Source of the DNA: Anaerolinea sp.
GTDB taxonomy: Bacteria; Chloroflexota; Anaerolineae; Anaerolineales; Anaerolineaceae
Direction: 5' to 3'
Assembly (NCBI GenBank): GCA_029975965.1
Contig: JARKOV010000076.1
Coordinates: forward strand, 34,568 to 98,567
Length of the DNA: 64,000 nt
In this document: one piece after another, positions 27,845 to 32,790 of the stretch
Position numbering within the stretch: position 1 is the stretch's first letter
Layout: each line of letters starts with the position of its first letter
Translations under genes and position numbers: made by a program
Notes under the pieces: model-generated
Databases searched by the model: none
The model's input: the letters and a program-made list of their open reading frames with translations, nothing else
Told to the model about the DNA's origin: nothing

Positions 27845-29072
27845 ATTTCCCCTTCCAGACCACCATCATCAGCGCTGCCAGGAATGCCATCCCCGACCCA
27901 AACAAGAACGGCGCCGAAGGGCCCCATCCCTGCCACGCCCCGACCCCCTGCCAGAGCACGCCGGCAATCAACGACGCCGGAAAATCGAGCAGGCCTAACA
28001 CAGCATTGTAGGTGCCGTAAGCCGTGCCGCGCAAGTTTTCTGGCACCAGGTCGGCTACCATCGCTTTGGCCGTGCTGTACGCCAACGCGTAATAAACCCC
28101 GTAGAGGATATATAAGGCAACAATATGCCAAGCCGTTTGCGCCAGGCCAAAACCCAGGTAGATGGCCGCATAAACCAGCCACCCGCCGACGATCATCCGC
28201 TTTCGCCCAACCCGGTCGGACAGCGAGCCTGCAGGAGTCGAAAGCAGGGCATAAACAAGGTTGTAGACGGCCAGCATCGCCAGGATGCCGGTCACACTCA
28301 TCCCGCGCTCCTGCGCCCTCAAGGTGAGGAATGCGTCCGATGAATTGCCCAGGTCGAACACGCCGACAATGAACAGGAACAGCATGAACGGTCTGCCCAA
28401 GGAGCGAAAGGCAAATTTGGGCGCTTCTCGAACGCCGCTCACCGGCACGTCTCTGGCGCCAATGACCAGCGACAAGACCGCCAGTAGCGCCGGGATGATG
28501 CTGATTAAGACCACCGTGCGGAAAGTTGGCGCGCTTAAGTTGACCTGGTGTGCCTGAGCGAGCCAAACGATTCCCAGTGAGATCAACAGGCCGAACATAG
28601 CGCCGGCTGTGTCGGCTGCGCGATGGAAGCCAAAAGCCAGGCCGCGAATCTCCGGCTTGACCGAGTCAGCCACCAGCGCATCCCGCGGGGCTGTGCGGAT
28701 CCCCTTCCCTACCCGGTCCATCCAGCGCACGCCGGCGATGGCTTCCCAGCTACTCGCGAAATAGAAAAATGGCTTGGCCAACGCCGCCAACCCATAGCCA
28801 AACACGGCAATCCATTTGCGCCCGCGCAAGCGGTCCGATAACCAGCCCGAGAACACCTTCAACAGGCTGGCGGTCGCTTCAGCGACGCCCTCAATGATGC
28901 CAATGATGTTGGTCTTCACCCCCAGCACGTTCGCCAGGAACAACGGCAGGATATTAATCACCATTTCGGTGGAGATATCCATGAAAAAGCTGGTCAGGCT
29001 GACCGCCCATACATTGCGAGGCAACCGCCGTAGGCCCACCTGGGGTCGCTGTGATACCTCTTGTTCACTCAT
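27843..29072 (-). CDS. Major facilitator superfamily transporter
   Basis: This is a 12-helix MFS protein with the motif A-like loop GWLSDRLRGRKWIAVFGYGLAALAKP between helices 2 and 3, RWMDRVGKGIRTAPRDALVADSV in the centre, and a second motif A (AGSLSDRVGRKRMIVGGW) in the C-half. The GKGIRTAPRDALV segment is typical of a bacterial subgroup of drug or small-molecule exporters whose substrate is unknown. The ATG at 29072 has GGGGAGG upstream; the frame can extend 39 codons further without good support. It is divergent from the cysteine-leader transcript. Confidence 0.9.
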   Translation of the reverse strand: MSEQEVSQRPQVGLRRLPRNVWAVSLTSFFMDISTEMVINILPLFLANVLGVKTNIIGIIEGVAEATASLLKVFSGWLSDRLRGRKWIAVFGYGLAALAKPFFYFASSWEAIAGVRWMDRVGKGIRTAPRDALVADSVKPEIRGLAFGFHRAADTAGAMFGLLISLGIVWLAQAHQVNLSAPTFRTVVLISIIPALLAVLSLVIGARDVPVSGVREAPKFAFRSLGRPFMLFLFIVGVFDLGNSSDAFLTLRAQERGMSVTGILAMLAVYNLVYALLSTPAGSLSDRVGRKRMIVGGWLVYAAIYLGFGLAQTAWHIVALYILYGVYYALAYSTAKAMVADLVPENLRGTAYGTYNAVLGLLDFPASLIAGVLWQGVGAWQGWGPSAPFLFGSGMAFLAALMMVVWKGK

Positions 29073-29193
29073 CGGAGCCTCCCCTTCCGCATCGTATCCG
29101 TCCATTATACGCCTCGATGGAATACCCACTTCAAAGAGGGGATCGATTCCTTGCAGGGTCTTCTCAACGTCATGGGTTTCTTTGTGCAACCCC

Positions 29194-29221
29194 TTGACAA
29201 TCTGATAAATATTATTAGAAT
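29194..29221 (+). promoter_or_regulatory. Strong sigma-70-type promoter (TTGACA-16-TAGAAT) of the leader peptide operon
   Basis: A perfect -35 TTGACA (29194-29199) lies 16 nt before TAGAAT (29216-29221). The start site would be near 29228, about 20 nt before the leader ORF. Confidence 0.75.
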
Positions 29222-29248
29222 AGTCATAATAATTCTAGGAGCACTCGT

Positions 29249-29305
29249 ATGAGCCAAACTTGCATGTGTTGTATGCGGCGGGGACTGGAACCGCCGCCGG
29301 CCTGA
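29249..29305 (+). CDS. Cys-rich leader peptide (18 aa), candidate attenuator
   Basis: The ORF MSQTCMCCMRRGLEPPPA has a near-ideal TAGGAG Shine-Dalgarno 7 nt before the ATG and a promoter just upstream. Cys codons are at positions 5, 7 and 8. The ORF overlaps a hairpin, GCGGCGG (29275-29281) with CCGCCGC (29291-29297), and is followed by a terminator at 29326. This is the arrangement of ribosome-mediated attenuation: stalling at Cys codons would cover the first arm and free the second. The peptide has no recognisable function of its own. Confidence 0.65.
   Translation: MSQTCMCCMRRGLEPPPA
29275..29297 (+). promoter_or_regulatory. Hairpin overlapping the leader ORF (attenuator arms 1 and 2)
   Basis: A 7-bp GC-only stem with a 9-nt loop. 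Its 3' arm (CCGCC) can also pair with GGTGG inside the terminator stem, including one G-U pair, so it could form a competing antiterminator. Confidence 0.5.
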
Positions 29306-29325
29306 AAATCCGACGGACGTCTCTG

Positions 29326-29379
29326 ACGGGTGGTTGCAGCCCCTGCATATGTGCAGTTGACCGCAGCCACCCGTTTTTT
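29326..29379 (+). terminator. Intrinsic terminator between leader peptide and DUF4395 gene
   Basis: ACGGGTGGTTGC (29326-29337) pairs with GCAGCCACCCGT (29363-29374) over 12 bp with one G-U pair. The loop has an inner CTGCA/TGCAG hairpin, and six Ts follow. It stands upstream of, not after, the structural genes. Confidence 0.85.
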
Positions 29380-29420
29380 AATTCGTTTATAGAATTTATT
29401 GACCGAATGAGAGGAAACCC

Positions 29421-29924
29421 TTGAAAGTAAACCAACCTTCGCTGGTGCCCGTAGATCACTCCGCGATTCGCGTCAACCAATCGCTGGTCATCCTTCTGCC
29501 GGCCCTCGCTTTTATCTTCAACCTGCCGTGGCTGGTCGGCTTAACCGCTGCCGTAATGCTGGTGGGGAGCTTTGTGCTCCAAAAGCCCGGGTTCGCTTTC
29601 CTCTACGCTGCGCTGTTGAGACCTGCCGGACTGGTCAAACCGGATGTCGTCCAGGACAACCGCGAACCGCACCTGTTTTCGCAGGGGCTGGGCGGTATTT
29701 TCCTGAGCGCGGCAACCGCGCTGCTCTACCTGGCGAGCTCAACGGCGGGGTGGGTGCTCAGCTGGTTGGTGGTGGGCCTGGCCTCGCTCAATTTGTTCGC
29801 CGGCTTCTGCGTCGGATGCGCGATCTACTACTGGCTCAACCACTTGAATGTGCCGGGGTTTGCCAAAGCGCCCCCGGCTGGCACACTACCGGGGATGCGC
29901 CCAAGGAATGCCACCCATGAATGA
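29421..29924 (+). CDS. DUF4395 membrane protein
   Basis: The 167-residue protein has four membrane segments and the DUF4395 signature: DHSAIRVNQSLVILLPALAF, FLYAALLRPAG, RFSQG-like HLFSQGLGGIFLS and the late NLFAGFCVGCAIYYWL with its membrane-embedded CxxC. DUF4395 proteins are often encoded with thioredoxins and rhodaneses, suggesting a role in thiol or sulfur transfer across the membrane; the function is not established. The start is a TTG after GAGAGGAAA. The gene overlaps the thioredoxin start by 8 nt. Confidence 0.85.
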   Translation: MKVNQPSLVPVDHSAIRVNQSLVILLPALAFIFNLPWLVGLTAAVMLVGSFVLQKPGFAFLYAALLRPAGLVKPDVVQDNREPHLFSQGLGGIFLSAATALLYLASSTAGWVLSWLVVGLASLNLFAGFCVGCAIYYWLNHLNVPGFAKAPPAGTLPGMRPRNATHE

Positions 29925-30327
29925 GGAAATCGTCATCCGCTTCCTGCTTGCCTTAGCGATCGCGGCTGCCGGCTTTGGGATCTACCAGCTGGCCTCGCGG
30001 GGAGTTTTGATGCGCGCCAGAAATGCCGGTCGGAAGTCTCCGGTCGGGCAACCAGGGCAACCGGCGATCCTGTACTTCACCACCCCCGATTGCGCGCCCT
30101 GCAAAACGATCCAACGCCCTGCGCTGAACCAGGTGAAGGCACTTTTAGGCGAGAAATTGCAGGTCGTCGAAGTAAATGCCTATGAAAATCCCGAGACCGC
30201 CCGAGAATGGGGAGTGCTGAGCGTGCCAACCACGTTCATCCTGGATGAACGGGGCATTCCGCGCCATGTCAATCACGGCGCAACCCCGGCTGGAAAGCTG
30301 ATCCGGCAGCTCCAAGACCTGGTTTAA
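29917..30327 (+). CDS. Membrane-anchored thioredoxin-like protein
   Basis: One N-terminal membrane segment (about residues 7-25) is followed by a thioredoxin fold with YFTTPDCAPCKTIQRPALNQV (active site CAPC), VVEVNAYENPETAREWGVLSVPTTFILDE (cis-Pro in VPTT). The charge pattern fits an outward-facing domain but topology is not certain. It would reduce or exchange disulfides in partner proteins, perhaps with the CxxC of the overlapping DUF4395 protein. The ATG at 29917 has AAGGAA upstream, and an upstream in-frame start adds 23 unlike residues. Confidence 0.9.
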   Translation: MNEEIVIRFLLALAIAAAGFGIYQLASRGVLMRARNAGRKSPVGQPGQPAILYFTTPDCAPCKTIQRPALNQVKALLGEKLQVVEVNAYENPETAREWGVLSVPTTFILDERGIPRHVNHGATPAGKLIRQLQDLV

Positions 30328-30429
30328 CCGGAGACGAAAAATCCACCTGGCTGCGCAACTTTTTCCCTGACCCCACGTAAATCTTCATAGAAGGGACGAA
30401 AAACAAGACGCTCTTCGATGGAGGCTGAA

Positions 30430-30612
30430 ATGGGTATTATCGAGTTCTTGGTGAACTTAATTGGTGGCGTGATCGGGTTGGTGGTTGGATTGATTGGCGG
30501 GCTGATCGGGCTCGTGGTGGGCATCGCCGGCCTGGCAATTGCGGTCGTGGTGGGACTGGTGCTGCTGGTCTTGCTCGGGCCGATAATCCTTCTATTGGTA
30601 TTGATTTTCTGA
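30430..30612 (+). CDS. Small Gly-rich membrane protein with glycine-zipper repeats
   Basis: The 60-residue protein is almost entirely hydrophobic: MGIIEFLVNLIGGVIGLVVG, then repeated GLIGGLIGLVVGIAGLA, and a second segment rich in Val and Leu. The GxxxG spacing suggests helix packing or oligomerisation in the membrane. GGAGG stands 7 nt before the ATG at 30430. No family recognised. It follows the thioredoxin gene by about 100 nt and is closed by a terminator. Confidence 0.65.
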   Translation: MGIIEFLVNLIGGVIGLVVGLIGGLIGLVVGIAGLAIAVVVGLVLLVLLGPIILLLVLIF

Positions 30613-30629
30613 TCCCTTATCGTCGCACG

Positions 30630-30667
30630 ATGCAGGCGGCTGGCTCATGCTGGTCGCCTGCATCTTT
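30630..30667 (+). terminator. Intrinsic terminator
   Basis: ATGCAGGCG (30630-30638) pairs with CGCCTGCAT (30655-30663), then CTTTT. It ends the DUF4395/thioredoxin/small membrane protein region. Confidence 0.75.
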
Positions 30668-30678
30668 TAATCCTCAAT

Positions 30679-32790
30679 TCACCGCAGTACCTGGAACAAG
30701 TTGCTGAAATCGTCTCGCCAGAGACGCACCCGGCCGCTCCCATTCAGATCGCGAGATGCGGCGAGCAAAGCGGGTTCACCGGCCAGGGTCTCCTTGGGAG
30801 CGATCAAGACCCACCAGGACAGGTTACCCAATGGCCTGGCGCCGTCGGAGGAAAAGAACCTGCCTTGCACACCCAGGGCTTTGATCGTCTGGTCCAGCAC
30901 CGGCTCCAGGTTGACATGCTTATTGGAAATGTGCACCGCCAGCATCCCCTGAGGGTTGATATGCGCCAGGTAAACCTCGAACGCTTCGCGGGTGAGCAAG
31001 TGCACCGGGATCGAGTCGCCCGAAAAGGCATCCACGACGAGCAAATCGTATTGCTGGCTGCCGCTGGCGAGCTCACGCTCCAGCGCCAGGCGCGCGTCAC
31101 CCGGGATGATTTCAACCTTCGCCGGCGTATCCCTCAGGTAAGTAAAATACCGCTCGTTTTGAGCCAGCCGGATGACCGCCGGGTCCAACTCGTAAAAACG
31201 GAAGACATCGCCGGCGTTGCCATACACCGCCAGCGAGCCAATCCCCAATCCAACCACACCCACCCGCAAGGGCTTCACCTGGGGGCGCTGTTCAAAACTC
31301 CGGAAGGCCAGGCCAATCCCACTCGGGGCGGTGTAATACGTCGTCGGCGCCATCCGGTATGCCTCATCGAGAGCCTGCAAGCCGTGCATCGTCGTTCCGT
31401 GCATCATGCGCCGGCTATCCACGCCGTCGATCACCCCTTGCCGAACCCTGATCACCCCATAAAAATTGCGCTCCATCCACAGGCTGCCGGCGCGAATATA
31501 CAGCGGGAATATCAGCAATAACACGGTCGCCGCCAGCCCGACGACTGAGATAGGTACGCGCAGCTTCCAGCTCCAGGCTTGCCGATTCTGATACAGGATG
31601 AACACCGAAGACATGGCAATCAGGGCGAGTCCGACCTGGTACTCCCAATACCCTTCGAAGAGAACCGGGGCTACCAGATTGACCAGCACACCACCCAGCG
31701 CTCCACCGATGGAGATCATCAGGTAAAACGAGGTCAGAAAACGCGGCGCCGGTCGTCTCTCGTACACTTCGCGGTGGCACAGCAAGCAGGCAAAGAATAC
31801 CACCGCCGCGTTGACCACGATCTGGACCACCGTATCCAAGACACCTGCCATCACCTGCGCCCACATCGCGAAGCCAATGCTCGCCAGAGTTAAGATGATC
31901 AAGACCCCTTTTGGAATTCGGTAACGATCGCTGAAGGCGACCATAAAAGACAGCAGATAAAGGCTGAGTGGCAATACCCATAAGAATGGAACAGAGGCAA
32001 GGTCCTGGGTCAATTCATTGGTGCCAGACAACAAAACCATCGAGGCGCAGGTCGCCAAAAACACCCACAGGATGCGCGTTCTCGCACCCGGTGGCGGCGA
32101 GGGGATATCCTCTTGGACTGCCGGATCAACTCGATCTCCGCTATCGGGCGCATTTCGCGCGACGTGATGGAGGACAAGTCCTAATAACAACAGGAAAATA
32201 AAGAAACCCGTCGACCAGAAAAGCGCCTGGGAGTGGAGGGTCAGGTTGGGCTCGACCAGCAACGGGTAACTGAGCAAGGCTGCCAGCGAAGCGGCGTTGG
32301 AGAGGATATAGAAACGGTAGGGTTGCCCCCTCGTGGTCAACCTGCCAAACCAGAACTGCACCAGCGTGCTGGTGGTTGACAACAGGAAATACGGCACACC
32401 AACGCTGACCAACAAAATCAACAAGACATCCCACATGGGGGCATCCGCTGAGCCGGGCCGAAAAGACGCGCCGGCGAGCAATGGTACACCCCAGGCTAAA
32501 GCCGTGACCAAGATCCAGCCGCCGGCGACCAGCATCACCCCGCTGTGGACGCGCACCTGGGTGGATGACCGGCGCCCCCCCAACCAGTGGGCATACAGAT
32601 AACCACCCAAAAGAACCAGTTGGAAGAACATCATCGCGGTCGTCCAGACGGCTGTCCCCCCGCCAAACCAGGGCAAAATGTACTTGCTGATCAATGGTTG
32701 GACGAGAAATAACAGGAAGGAAGACACCAATATGGTCCCGGCAAAGAAAAAAAGGCTCTGCCGGTTTACCGAAGAAGAGCCATTACCCAT
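30679..32790 (-). CDS. Membrane protein fused to a spermidine synthase-like domain
   Basis: The 703-residue protein has about eleven hydrophobic segments in residues 1-440, starting FFFAGTILVSSFLLFLVQPLISKYILPWFGGGTAVWTTAMMFFQLVLLGGYLYAH. A class I methyltransferase-like domain of the spermidine synthase type follows: VGVVGLGIGSLAVYG, RFYELDPAVIRLA, VEIIPGDARLALE, LLVVDAFSGDSIPVHLLT. The fused form is common in bacteria and may not make polyamines; the product is unknown. GAGGGTG precedes the ATG. The GNAT gene downstream ends 36 nt away on the same strand. Confidence 0.88.
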   Translation of the reverse strand: MGNGSSSVNRQSLFFFAGTILVSSFLLFLVQPLISKYILPWFGGGTAVWTTAMMFFQLVLLGGYLYAHWLGGRRSSTQVRVHSGVMLVAGGWILVTALAWGVPLLAGASFRPGSADAPMWDVLLILLVSVGVPYFLLSTTSTLVQFWFGRLTTRGQPYRFYILSNAASLAALLSYPLLVEPNLTLHSQALFWSTGFFIFLLLLGLVLHHVARNAPDSGDRVDPAVQEDIPSPPPGARTRILWVFLATCASMVLLSGTNELTQDLASVPFLWVLPLSLYLLSFMVAFSDRYRIPKGVLIILTLASIGFAMWAQVMAGVLDTVVQIVVNAAVVFFACLLCHREVYERRPAPRFLTSFYLMISIGGALGGVLVNLVAPVLFEGYWEYQVGLALIAMSSVFILYQNRQAWSWKLRVPISVVGLAATVLLLIFPLYIRAGSLWMERNFYGVIRVRQGVIDGVDSRRMMHGTTMHGLQALDEAYRMAPTTYYTAPSGIGLAFRSFEQRPQVKPLRVGVVGLGIGSLAVYGNAGDVFRFYELDPAVIRLAQNERYFTYLRDTPAKVEIIPGDARLALERELASGSQQYDLLVVDAFSGDSIPVHLLTREAFEVYLAHINPQGMLAVHISNKHVNLEPVLDQTIKALGVQGRFFSSDGARPLGNLSWWVLIAPKETLAGEPALLAASRDLNGSGRVRLWRDDFSNLFQVLR

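Follow-up and report, generated by a model that had tools for sequence, protein, structure and literature searches.

The region considered here lies in a 64,000-nucleotide (nt) stretch of contig JARKOV010000076.1 from Anaerolinea sp. (assembly GCA_029975965.1, positions 34,568 to 98,567 of the forward strand). This whole stretch is called the window below, and positions are counted from its first letter. At 29194–29420 the window contains a short leader, a candidate cysteine-responsive transcription attenuator, placed before the genes of a DUF4395 membrane protein and a thioredoxin-like protein (Trx). The following features were recognized in the leader and directly behind it.

29194–29221, + strand: promoter TTGACA-16-TAGAAT (−35 box 29194–29199, 16-nt gap, −10 box 29216–29221), with 11 of 12 consensus letters
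29236–29241, + strand: Shine-Dalgarno sequence TAGGAG of the leader open reading frame (ORF), by direct reading
29249–29305, + strand: leader ORF MSQTCMCCMRRGLEPPPA, 18 codons, stop codon TGA at 29303–29305, frame conserved in relatives
29261–29272, + strand: putative sensor codons TGC ATG TGT TGT (Cys-Met-Cys-Cys), with Cys at 29261 (TGC), 29267 (TGT) and 29270 (TGT)
29275–29297, + strand: hairpin 1:2 (GCGGCGG / CCGCCGC), arms 29275–29281 and 29291–29297, −15.1 kcal/mol, overlapping the ORF
29278–29295, + strand: 5′ strand of the antiterminator, GCGGGGACTGGAACCGCC, from pairing analyses and folding
29329–29346, + strand: 3′ strand of the antiterminator, GGTGGTTGCAGCCCCTGC, overlapping the 5′ arm of the terminator
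29325–29379, + strand: intrinsic terminator, stem-loop 29325–29375 (−29.8 kcal/mol) and six T at 29374–29379
29421–29924, + strand: DUF4395 membrane protein gene (PF14340, E 1.4e-26), TTG start
29917–30327, + strand: thioredoxin-like gene (PF00085, E 1.6e-10), hydrophobic N-terminus, overlapping the DUF4395 gene

The promoter, the Shine-Dalgarno sequence, the 18-codon ORF with its three Cys codons, the hairpin, the terminator with six T, the TTG-started DUF4395 gene and the thioredoxin gene had all been listed in a first-pass annotation of this DNA, and each was found again at the same position. The leader ATG stands 27 nt past the −10 box and is provided with the Shine-Dalgarno sequence, and two promoter-like sites were counted in 29000–30700 against 0.6 expected. 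On the upstream side lies an MFS transporter gene in divergent orientation, and the terminator therefore probably does not belong to a preceding gene on the same strand.

Recurrence and coding character of the leader

A scan of genome contigs with a DUF4395 alignment confirmed 147 loci, the best 80 of which were kept for the locus counts; nearly all of the 80 are titled as Chloroflexota or subgroups of this phylum, and two (L031, L054) as Spirochaetes bins. Strict Cys leader ORFs, defined as short frames with ATG, C-x-C and then R[RG] within three codons, were found upstream of DUF4395 or its operon in 45 of these loci. Twenty dinucleotide shuffles gave 1.4 such loci on average and never more than 3; the reverse strand gave 3. 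Where DUF4395 is the first gene, the leader lies about 140–290 nt upstream; where it stands inside a longer operon, the leader is often found 1.5–2 kb upstream, ahead of the first operon gene. The first-pass annotation had proposed a comparison of the upstream regions in related Anaerolineae, and in this comparison the Cys codons, the frame, the terminator and the alternative pairing all recur.

Short C-x-C ORFs as such are not rare: a loose C-x-C criterion gave 59 of the 80 real loci, 23 in shuffled sequences and 24 on the reverse strand, and on these numbers one might think of a chance ORF beside the ordinary terminator of something upstream. The probability of such a coincidence is negligible in our opinion, being already contradicted by the strict counts, by the divergent orientation of the upstream MFS gene and by the gene neighbourhood of all 62 places examined in the genome searches described below.

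Alignment A2, which underlies the covariance model R1, comprises 36 of 49 selected leaders, namely the window and 35 loci (L006, L019, L020, L026, L039, L047, L052, L053, L063, L068, L077, L078 and L080 were omitted). At E 0.1, R1 matched the coding strand upstream of DUF4395 in 48 of the 80 loci, including 35 training loci and 13 others. The second model, R2, added a match at L023 (E 0.0033; peptide with CCSCLKRD), weak matches at L078 (E 0.18) and L079 (E 0.34) and, in L030, a match at another point of the locus, ahead of a CysK gene. The element of the window is itself a training sequence of R1, and no second good match was present in the window (next best E 1.5). A scan of viral contigs with alignment A1 revealed no relative, and five leader peptides (two of them of approximate sequence) had no match in NCBIfam at E 1. 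Another type of Cys leader (CLCCC, CLCP, CCC), followed by a GATGAGTTTTT-like hairpin end, was observed before DUF4395 in L005, L011 and L065, where R2 gives no match at E 1.

As search models, R1 and R2 lead well beyond DUF4395. R1 detected 20 places in 17 of 251 Chloroflexota genomes, and R2, applied with strict filters to 396 genomes from the class that includes A. thermolimosa, detected 63 places in 55 genomes, among which all 20 R1 places recur. Sixty-two of the 63 were examined; G569:C85:150-270 was left out on account of a contig end, and the identical L155 and L156 are counted twice. An in-frame Cys-x-Cys leader is present at every examined place, and every one of them precedes a gene of cysteine synthesis or sulfur transfer: within about 240 nt, the first gene is for a cysteine synthase at 42 places (28 CysM-type and 14 CysK-type), for a sulfurtransferase of the rhodanese type at 12, for DUF4395 at 7 and for a MetY-like enzyme at 1. 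The gene types were assigned by tblastn with five queries (Pfam PALP twice, Rhodanese, DUF4395 and Cys_Met_Meta_PP), and the names CysM, CysK and MetY are labels given in this analysis. Over 100 nt, seven of the 62 places have exactly the sequence of a seed of the model by which they were detected, and 55 do not. DUF4395 and thioredoxin, supposed at first to be the targets, are present among them as one of several target groups, beside cysteine synthases and rhodaneses, and the leader apparently works as a cysteine regulon in Anaerolineae.

Two arrangements of repeated leaders were noticed. In Anaerolinea thermolimosa (G001) the identical leaders L155 and L156 stand before CysK genes about 56 kb apart on one contig, which may reflect either a recent duplication or an assembly effect. 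In L042, tandem leaders at 1094–1229 and 1399–1528 (MSFNCLCLKRDL and MSYYCSCLRRGL) precede one CysM-type operon and possibly form a double attenuator.

The coding character of the leader was examined on alignment A3 (64 matches, 62 of them distinct, from 63 chosen sources; the known leaders L044, L047, L056, L059, L066 and L068 are among those left out). An ATG opens the Cys-codon frame in 59 of the 62 leaders, the +1 frame in none and the +2 frame in one. Codon 1 of the Cys motif is a Cys codon in all 62 (TGC 57, TGT 5) and so is codon 3, which is TGT every time, with L 35, M 18, S 5, T 2, I 1 and V 1 between them. The 42 leaders found with R2 only likewise have Cys on both sides, the residue between being L 19, I 8, M 7, S 4, R 2, T 1 and F 1. 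Most leaders show the motif Cys-x-Cys-x-x-Arg-Gly, and the stop codon is at codon 9 in 52 of 62. The spacers S, T, V, F and R returned by the model searches do not occur in the seeds.

A peptide of this kind might itself be the sensor, with the nascent C-x-C(-C) sequence recognizing a metal (e.g., copper), a thiol or an oxidant and changing ribosome stalling, as is reportedly the case for a copper-responsive upstream ORF with a CxxxCC motif in Bordetella. C-x-C is a plausible metal ligand, and one of the two window genes behind the leader encodes a thioredoxin-like protein. We consider this explanation improbable, since the N-terminal part, the spacer residue and the C-terminal part of the peptide all vary, the neighbours are mostly cysteine synthases and sulfurtransferases, and the conservation of Arg-Gly is accounted for by RNA pairing.

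A sigma-70-like promoter match precedes 61 of the 62 leaders (a script count without a chance control). In L001, L017 and L127 the leader ATG is only 10 nt past the −10 box, and these may be near-leaderless starts reminiscent of mycobacterial poly-Cys ORFs. The third codon also deserves mention: it is TGT in all 62 A3 leaders and all 42 R2-only leaders, although nine window ORFs use TGC in 14 of 14 cases; the Cys codons of DUF4395 genes are TGC 113 and TGT 55. This fixed TGT is unexplained and could be a slow sensor codon or an RNA contact.

Alternative RNA structures and the proposed switch

In the window, 29278–29295 pairs with 29329–29346 through 16 pairs (−28.1 kcal/mol), and this antiterminator takes up the terminator's own 5′ arm. 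The CCGCC:GGTGG pairing proposed at first proved to be its core, whereas the full pairing is longer (16 bp) and uses both arms of the hairpin. Compensatory changes accompany the pairing among the relatives. On A2, 83.2% of antiterminator cells are paired (36–53% in slid registers), the covariation score is 0.190 compared with 0.147 in shuffles (0/500) and 0.056–0.099 in slid registers, and there are 22 double-change cells compared with 9.2 in shuffles (0/500). For the terminator, 83.5% of cells are paired (slid 38–59%) and the shuffle count for double-change cells is 3/500; for hairpin 1:2, 73.5% are paired (slid 42–55%).

Swapping of arms between leaders (34 non-redundant of 62, 20000 permutations) agrees with these data. 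Own partners gave −31.9 kcal/mol against −24.5 for swapped ones in the antiterminator, −22.4 against −16.8 in the terminator and −16.8 against −14.5 in hairpin 1:2, each with 0/20000; the window's own partner ranks 1 of 34 for the terminator and 7 for hairpin 1:2. A hairpin stands before the T run in 49 of 49 selected leaders, with free energies from −17.9 to −37.4, the T run having been a selection criterion.

Control of first-gene translation, and not of termination, would be a different use of such a leader. The poly-Cys ORFs of Mycobacterium smegmatis are said to act in this way, with the ribosome site of the first gene being hidden, and a mechanism of this general sort is known for them at least from the papers that cite the original work. 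Nevertheless, the strong hairpin and T run that precede the gene in the 49 leaders selected for that run, and the use of the terminator's own 5′ arm by the antiterminator, make translational control very unlikely here.

We give equally little credit to a structured RNA, either T-box-like or a metabolite riboswitch, that would do the sensing while translation of the ORF is incidental. Some stretches are indeed conserved beyond the coding need, such as the invariant third codon and a small hairpin with a conserved loop, but no Rfam match at the gathering threshold was obtained with the window and five loci (29100–29460 gave four sub-threshold matches), and the start, the frame and in most leaders the position of the stop codon are conserved. 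The small hairpin (A2 consensus TCCGCAGTCAACGGA) lies between the antiterminator arms in many CysM-type leaders and is possibly a pause or processing site.

Folding was then modelled for nascent RNA ending with the third arm. At least 6 pairs were counted as an antiterminator, and the ribosome was taken to mask the RNA as far as 12 nt from where the A-site codon begins. With the ribosome placed at codon 1 or at codon 3, all 62 leaders were predicted to form the antiterminator; 60 did so when no ribosome was present, and none when it stood at the stop codon. Both behaviours are combined in 58 of 62 leaders, fewer than 2 pairs remaining in the stop state. Hairpin 1:2, tried as the main brake, was rejected in this role, as it hardly appears in nascent folding, though the swap test supports the hairpin. 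The GC hairpin overlapping the ORF, pointed out in the first-pass annotation, therefore exists and is not predicted to beat the antiterminator in nascent RNA, from which it follows in the model that an untranslated leader should read through and not terminate.

Four of the features by which attenuators of the trp and his type are recognized are present, i.e., a Cys-codon ORF before alternative structures, a terminator, an antiterminator that excludes it (in the folding model) and pathway genes downstream. We are confident, judging from sequence comparison and folding, that the element is a ribosome-mediated, cysteine-responsive transcription attenuator, and very probably the switch turns the genes on when cysteine runs short. 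Transcription would start just behind 29221, and the 18-codon leader would be translated. When Cys-tRNA is ample, the ribosome would reach the stop codon at 29303 and cover 29278–29295, the terminator at 29325–29379 would form, and RNA polymerase would stop before DUF4395. With Cys-tRNA in short supply, it would halt at 29261–29272 as a stalled ribosome and leave most of 29278–29295 free; this strand would pair with 29329–29346 once the latter is made, no terminator would form, and DUF4395 and thioredoxin would be transcribed. We infer translation, stalling at low Cys-tRNA, termination, read-through and the physiological outcome from these structures.

A number of observations weigh against this interpretation. 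The proposed mechanism is built on sequence and folding. At full-length equilibrium the terminator wins in 45 of 62 leaders without a ribosome, in 37 with the ribosome at codon 1, in 47 at codon 3 and in 62 at the stop codon, and in the window it wins in every ribosome state; since the terminator is favoured at equilibrium, the switch predicted by the model must be kinetic and decided during transcription. In classical attenuators the decision is likewise taken while the RNA is transcribed. The double-change count is non-specific, reaching 26 on A2 when the antiterminator is slid by −1, two of five antiterminator measures are within the shuffles (both-side changes 63/500, further pair types 88/500), and so is the covariation score of the terminator (57/500). 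The window's antiterminator partner ranks only 8 of 34 in the swap test, which leans towards the antiterminator because A3 was fitted to it. The model seeds were picked for C-[MLI]-C and a following T run, so that Cys codons and T runs in the matches are partly built in. An R1 match is absent in 32 of the 80 DUF4395 loci (four of these have the contig start within 500 nt), and with strict filters R2 matched nothing in 341 of the 396 Anaerolineae genomes, which means that the element is common and not universal, or that the model misses divergent forms. Caution is also required in the window itself, where a simple terminator scan did not pick up the terminator, probably because its stem is interrupted, and where the whole 158-nt leader folds only 1.6 standard deviations better than shuffles, so that single-sequence folding by itself would not prove the element.

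DUF4395, thioredoxin and the CysO pathway genes

The commonest setting is CysM-Mec-DUF4395-Trx-CysO-MoeZ, which corresponds to the thiocarboxylate cysteine pathway. The operon of L027 has, behind its leader, the genes for PALP, JAB, DUF4395, thioredoxin, a ThiS-family protein of 90 residues with GG at its end, and a ThiF-rhodanese protein; the sequence relatives of this PALP protein in PDB are cysteine synthases, including chain 3dki_A, named O-phosphoserine sulfhydrylase. This gene set is the enzyme set of the CysO cysteine pathway as described in excerpts of a 2011 paper (PMC3227635), in which the sulfur source of CysO is called unknown. The order PALP-JAB-DUF4395-Trx-CysO-MoeZ was found in 32 of the 80 loci, each of them preceded by an R1 match, and PALP-JAB-CysO-DUF4395-Trx-MoeZ in another 10 loci, 5 of them with an R1 match; orders with PALP, JAB, CysO and MoeZ amount to 44 of 80 loci (32+10+1+1). 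Thioredoxin is located beside DUF4395 in 79 of 80. No homologues of CysM, Mec, CysO and MoeZ were found in the window, where tblastn with the six L027 proteins (E 1e-3, all 64 kb) matched DUF4395 and thioredoxin alone.

The CxxC motif of DUF4395 is invariant in 22 aligned relatives. The structure model of this protein is mainly helical with a predicted local distance difference test score (pLDDT) of 93.9; no fold in PDB matched it at an E value of 0.001 or below, so the structure did not settle the function. The operons suggest that DUF4395-Trx may supply sulfur or electrons to the CysO pathway. They tie an unknown family and its thioredoxin to cysteine synthesis through the CysO sulfur carrier.

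All these data may be combined in one tentative scheme, which we would not yet bet on as a whole. In this scheme Anaerolineae possess a cysteine regulon run by ribosomes alone, in which one transferable module (TGC-NNN-TGT, Arg-Gly, antiterminator/terminator) stands before CysK, CysM operons, rhodaneses and DUF4395-Trx; DUF4395-Trx would be a dedicated part of the CysO pathway and might provide MoeZ-CysO with the sulfur or reductant that is still to be accounted for, and the invariant UGU at the third codon would be a deliberately slow sensor codon.

Behind the two genes of the window, a small hydrophobic ORF (30418–30612) is followed by a 16-bp terminator-like hairpin with a T tail at 30629–30664, a possible end of the transcription unit.

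Comparison with known leader systems

The open-licence literature yielded no Cys attenuator in Chloroflexota, in line with the remark of the first-pass annotation that no such leader was known for DUF4395/thioredoxin in this phylum. The element described here would thus be a conserved cysteine transcription attenuator in which terminator and antiterminator can both be recognized, from a phylum for which the literature searched gave none. In the attenuators of trp, his and leu operons, the residue that is sensed abounds in the leader peptide, antiterminator and intrinsic terminator exclude each other, and the genes of the pathway lie downstream. The same features were found in the present leaders, with the difference that cysteine would be sensed, usually by two or three codons. 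The untranslated leader is predicted here to read through, in contrast to the trp leader.

With respect to the CysM-CysO-Mec-MoeZ pathway of M. tuberculosis, excerpts of the paper cited above (PMC3227635) describe the same enzyme set (PALP, JAB, a GG-ended ThiS-family carrier and a ThiF-rhodanese protein) that occurs in many operons here; unlike that pathway, these operons have DUF4395 and thioredoxin built in, often with a Cys leader at the start.

Short leader ORFs with Cys runs were predicted in 2005 before cys operons and cbs in Mycobacterium, Propionibacterium acnes and Bifidobacterium longum (BMC Microbiol, PMC1262725). In the available excerpts those leaders are given without terminators, whereas in the present ones terminator and antiterminator are present and conserved. 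The closest relatives, so far as citing papers describe them, are the mycobacterial poly-Cys leaderless short ORFs (sORFs), which are reported to control translation in M. smegmatis (Canestrari et al. 2020, Mol Microbiol, doi 10.1111/mmi.14498). According to the same accounts, a leader ORF with Cys codons likewise stands there before cysteine genes, there are several per genome as here (six were predicted in M. tuberculosis), and the response is attributed to the speed of ribosomes on Cys codons. The mycobacterial sORFs are described as leaderless, whereas the window leader has a 5′ untranslated region with a Shine-Dalgarno sequence (start sites being predicted), and as acting on translation, whereas the leaders of Anaerolineae belong to another phylum and combine the motif Cys-x-Cys-x-x-Arg-Gly, present in most of them, with a terminator and a covarying antiterminator.
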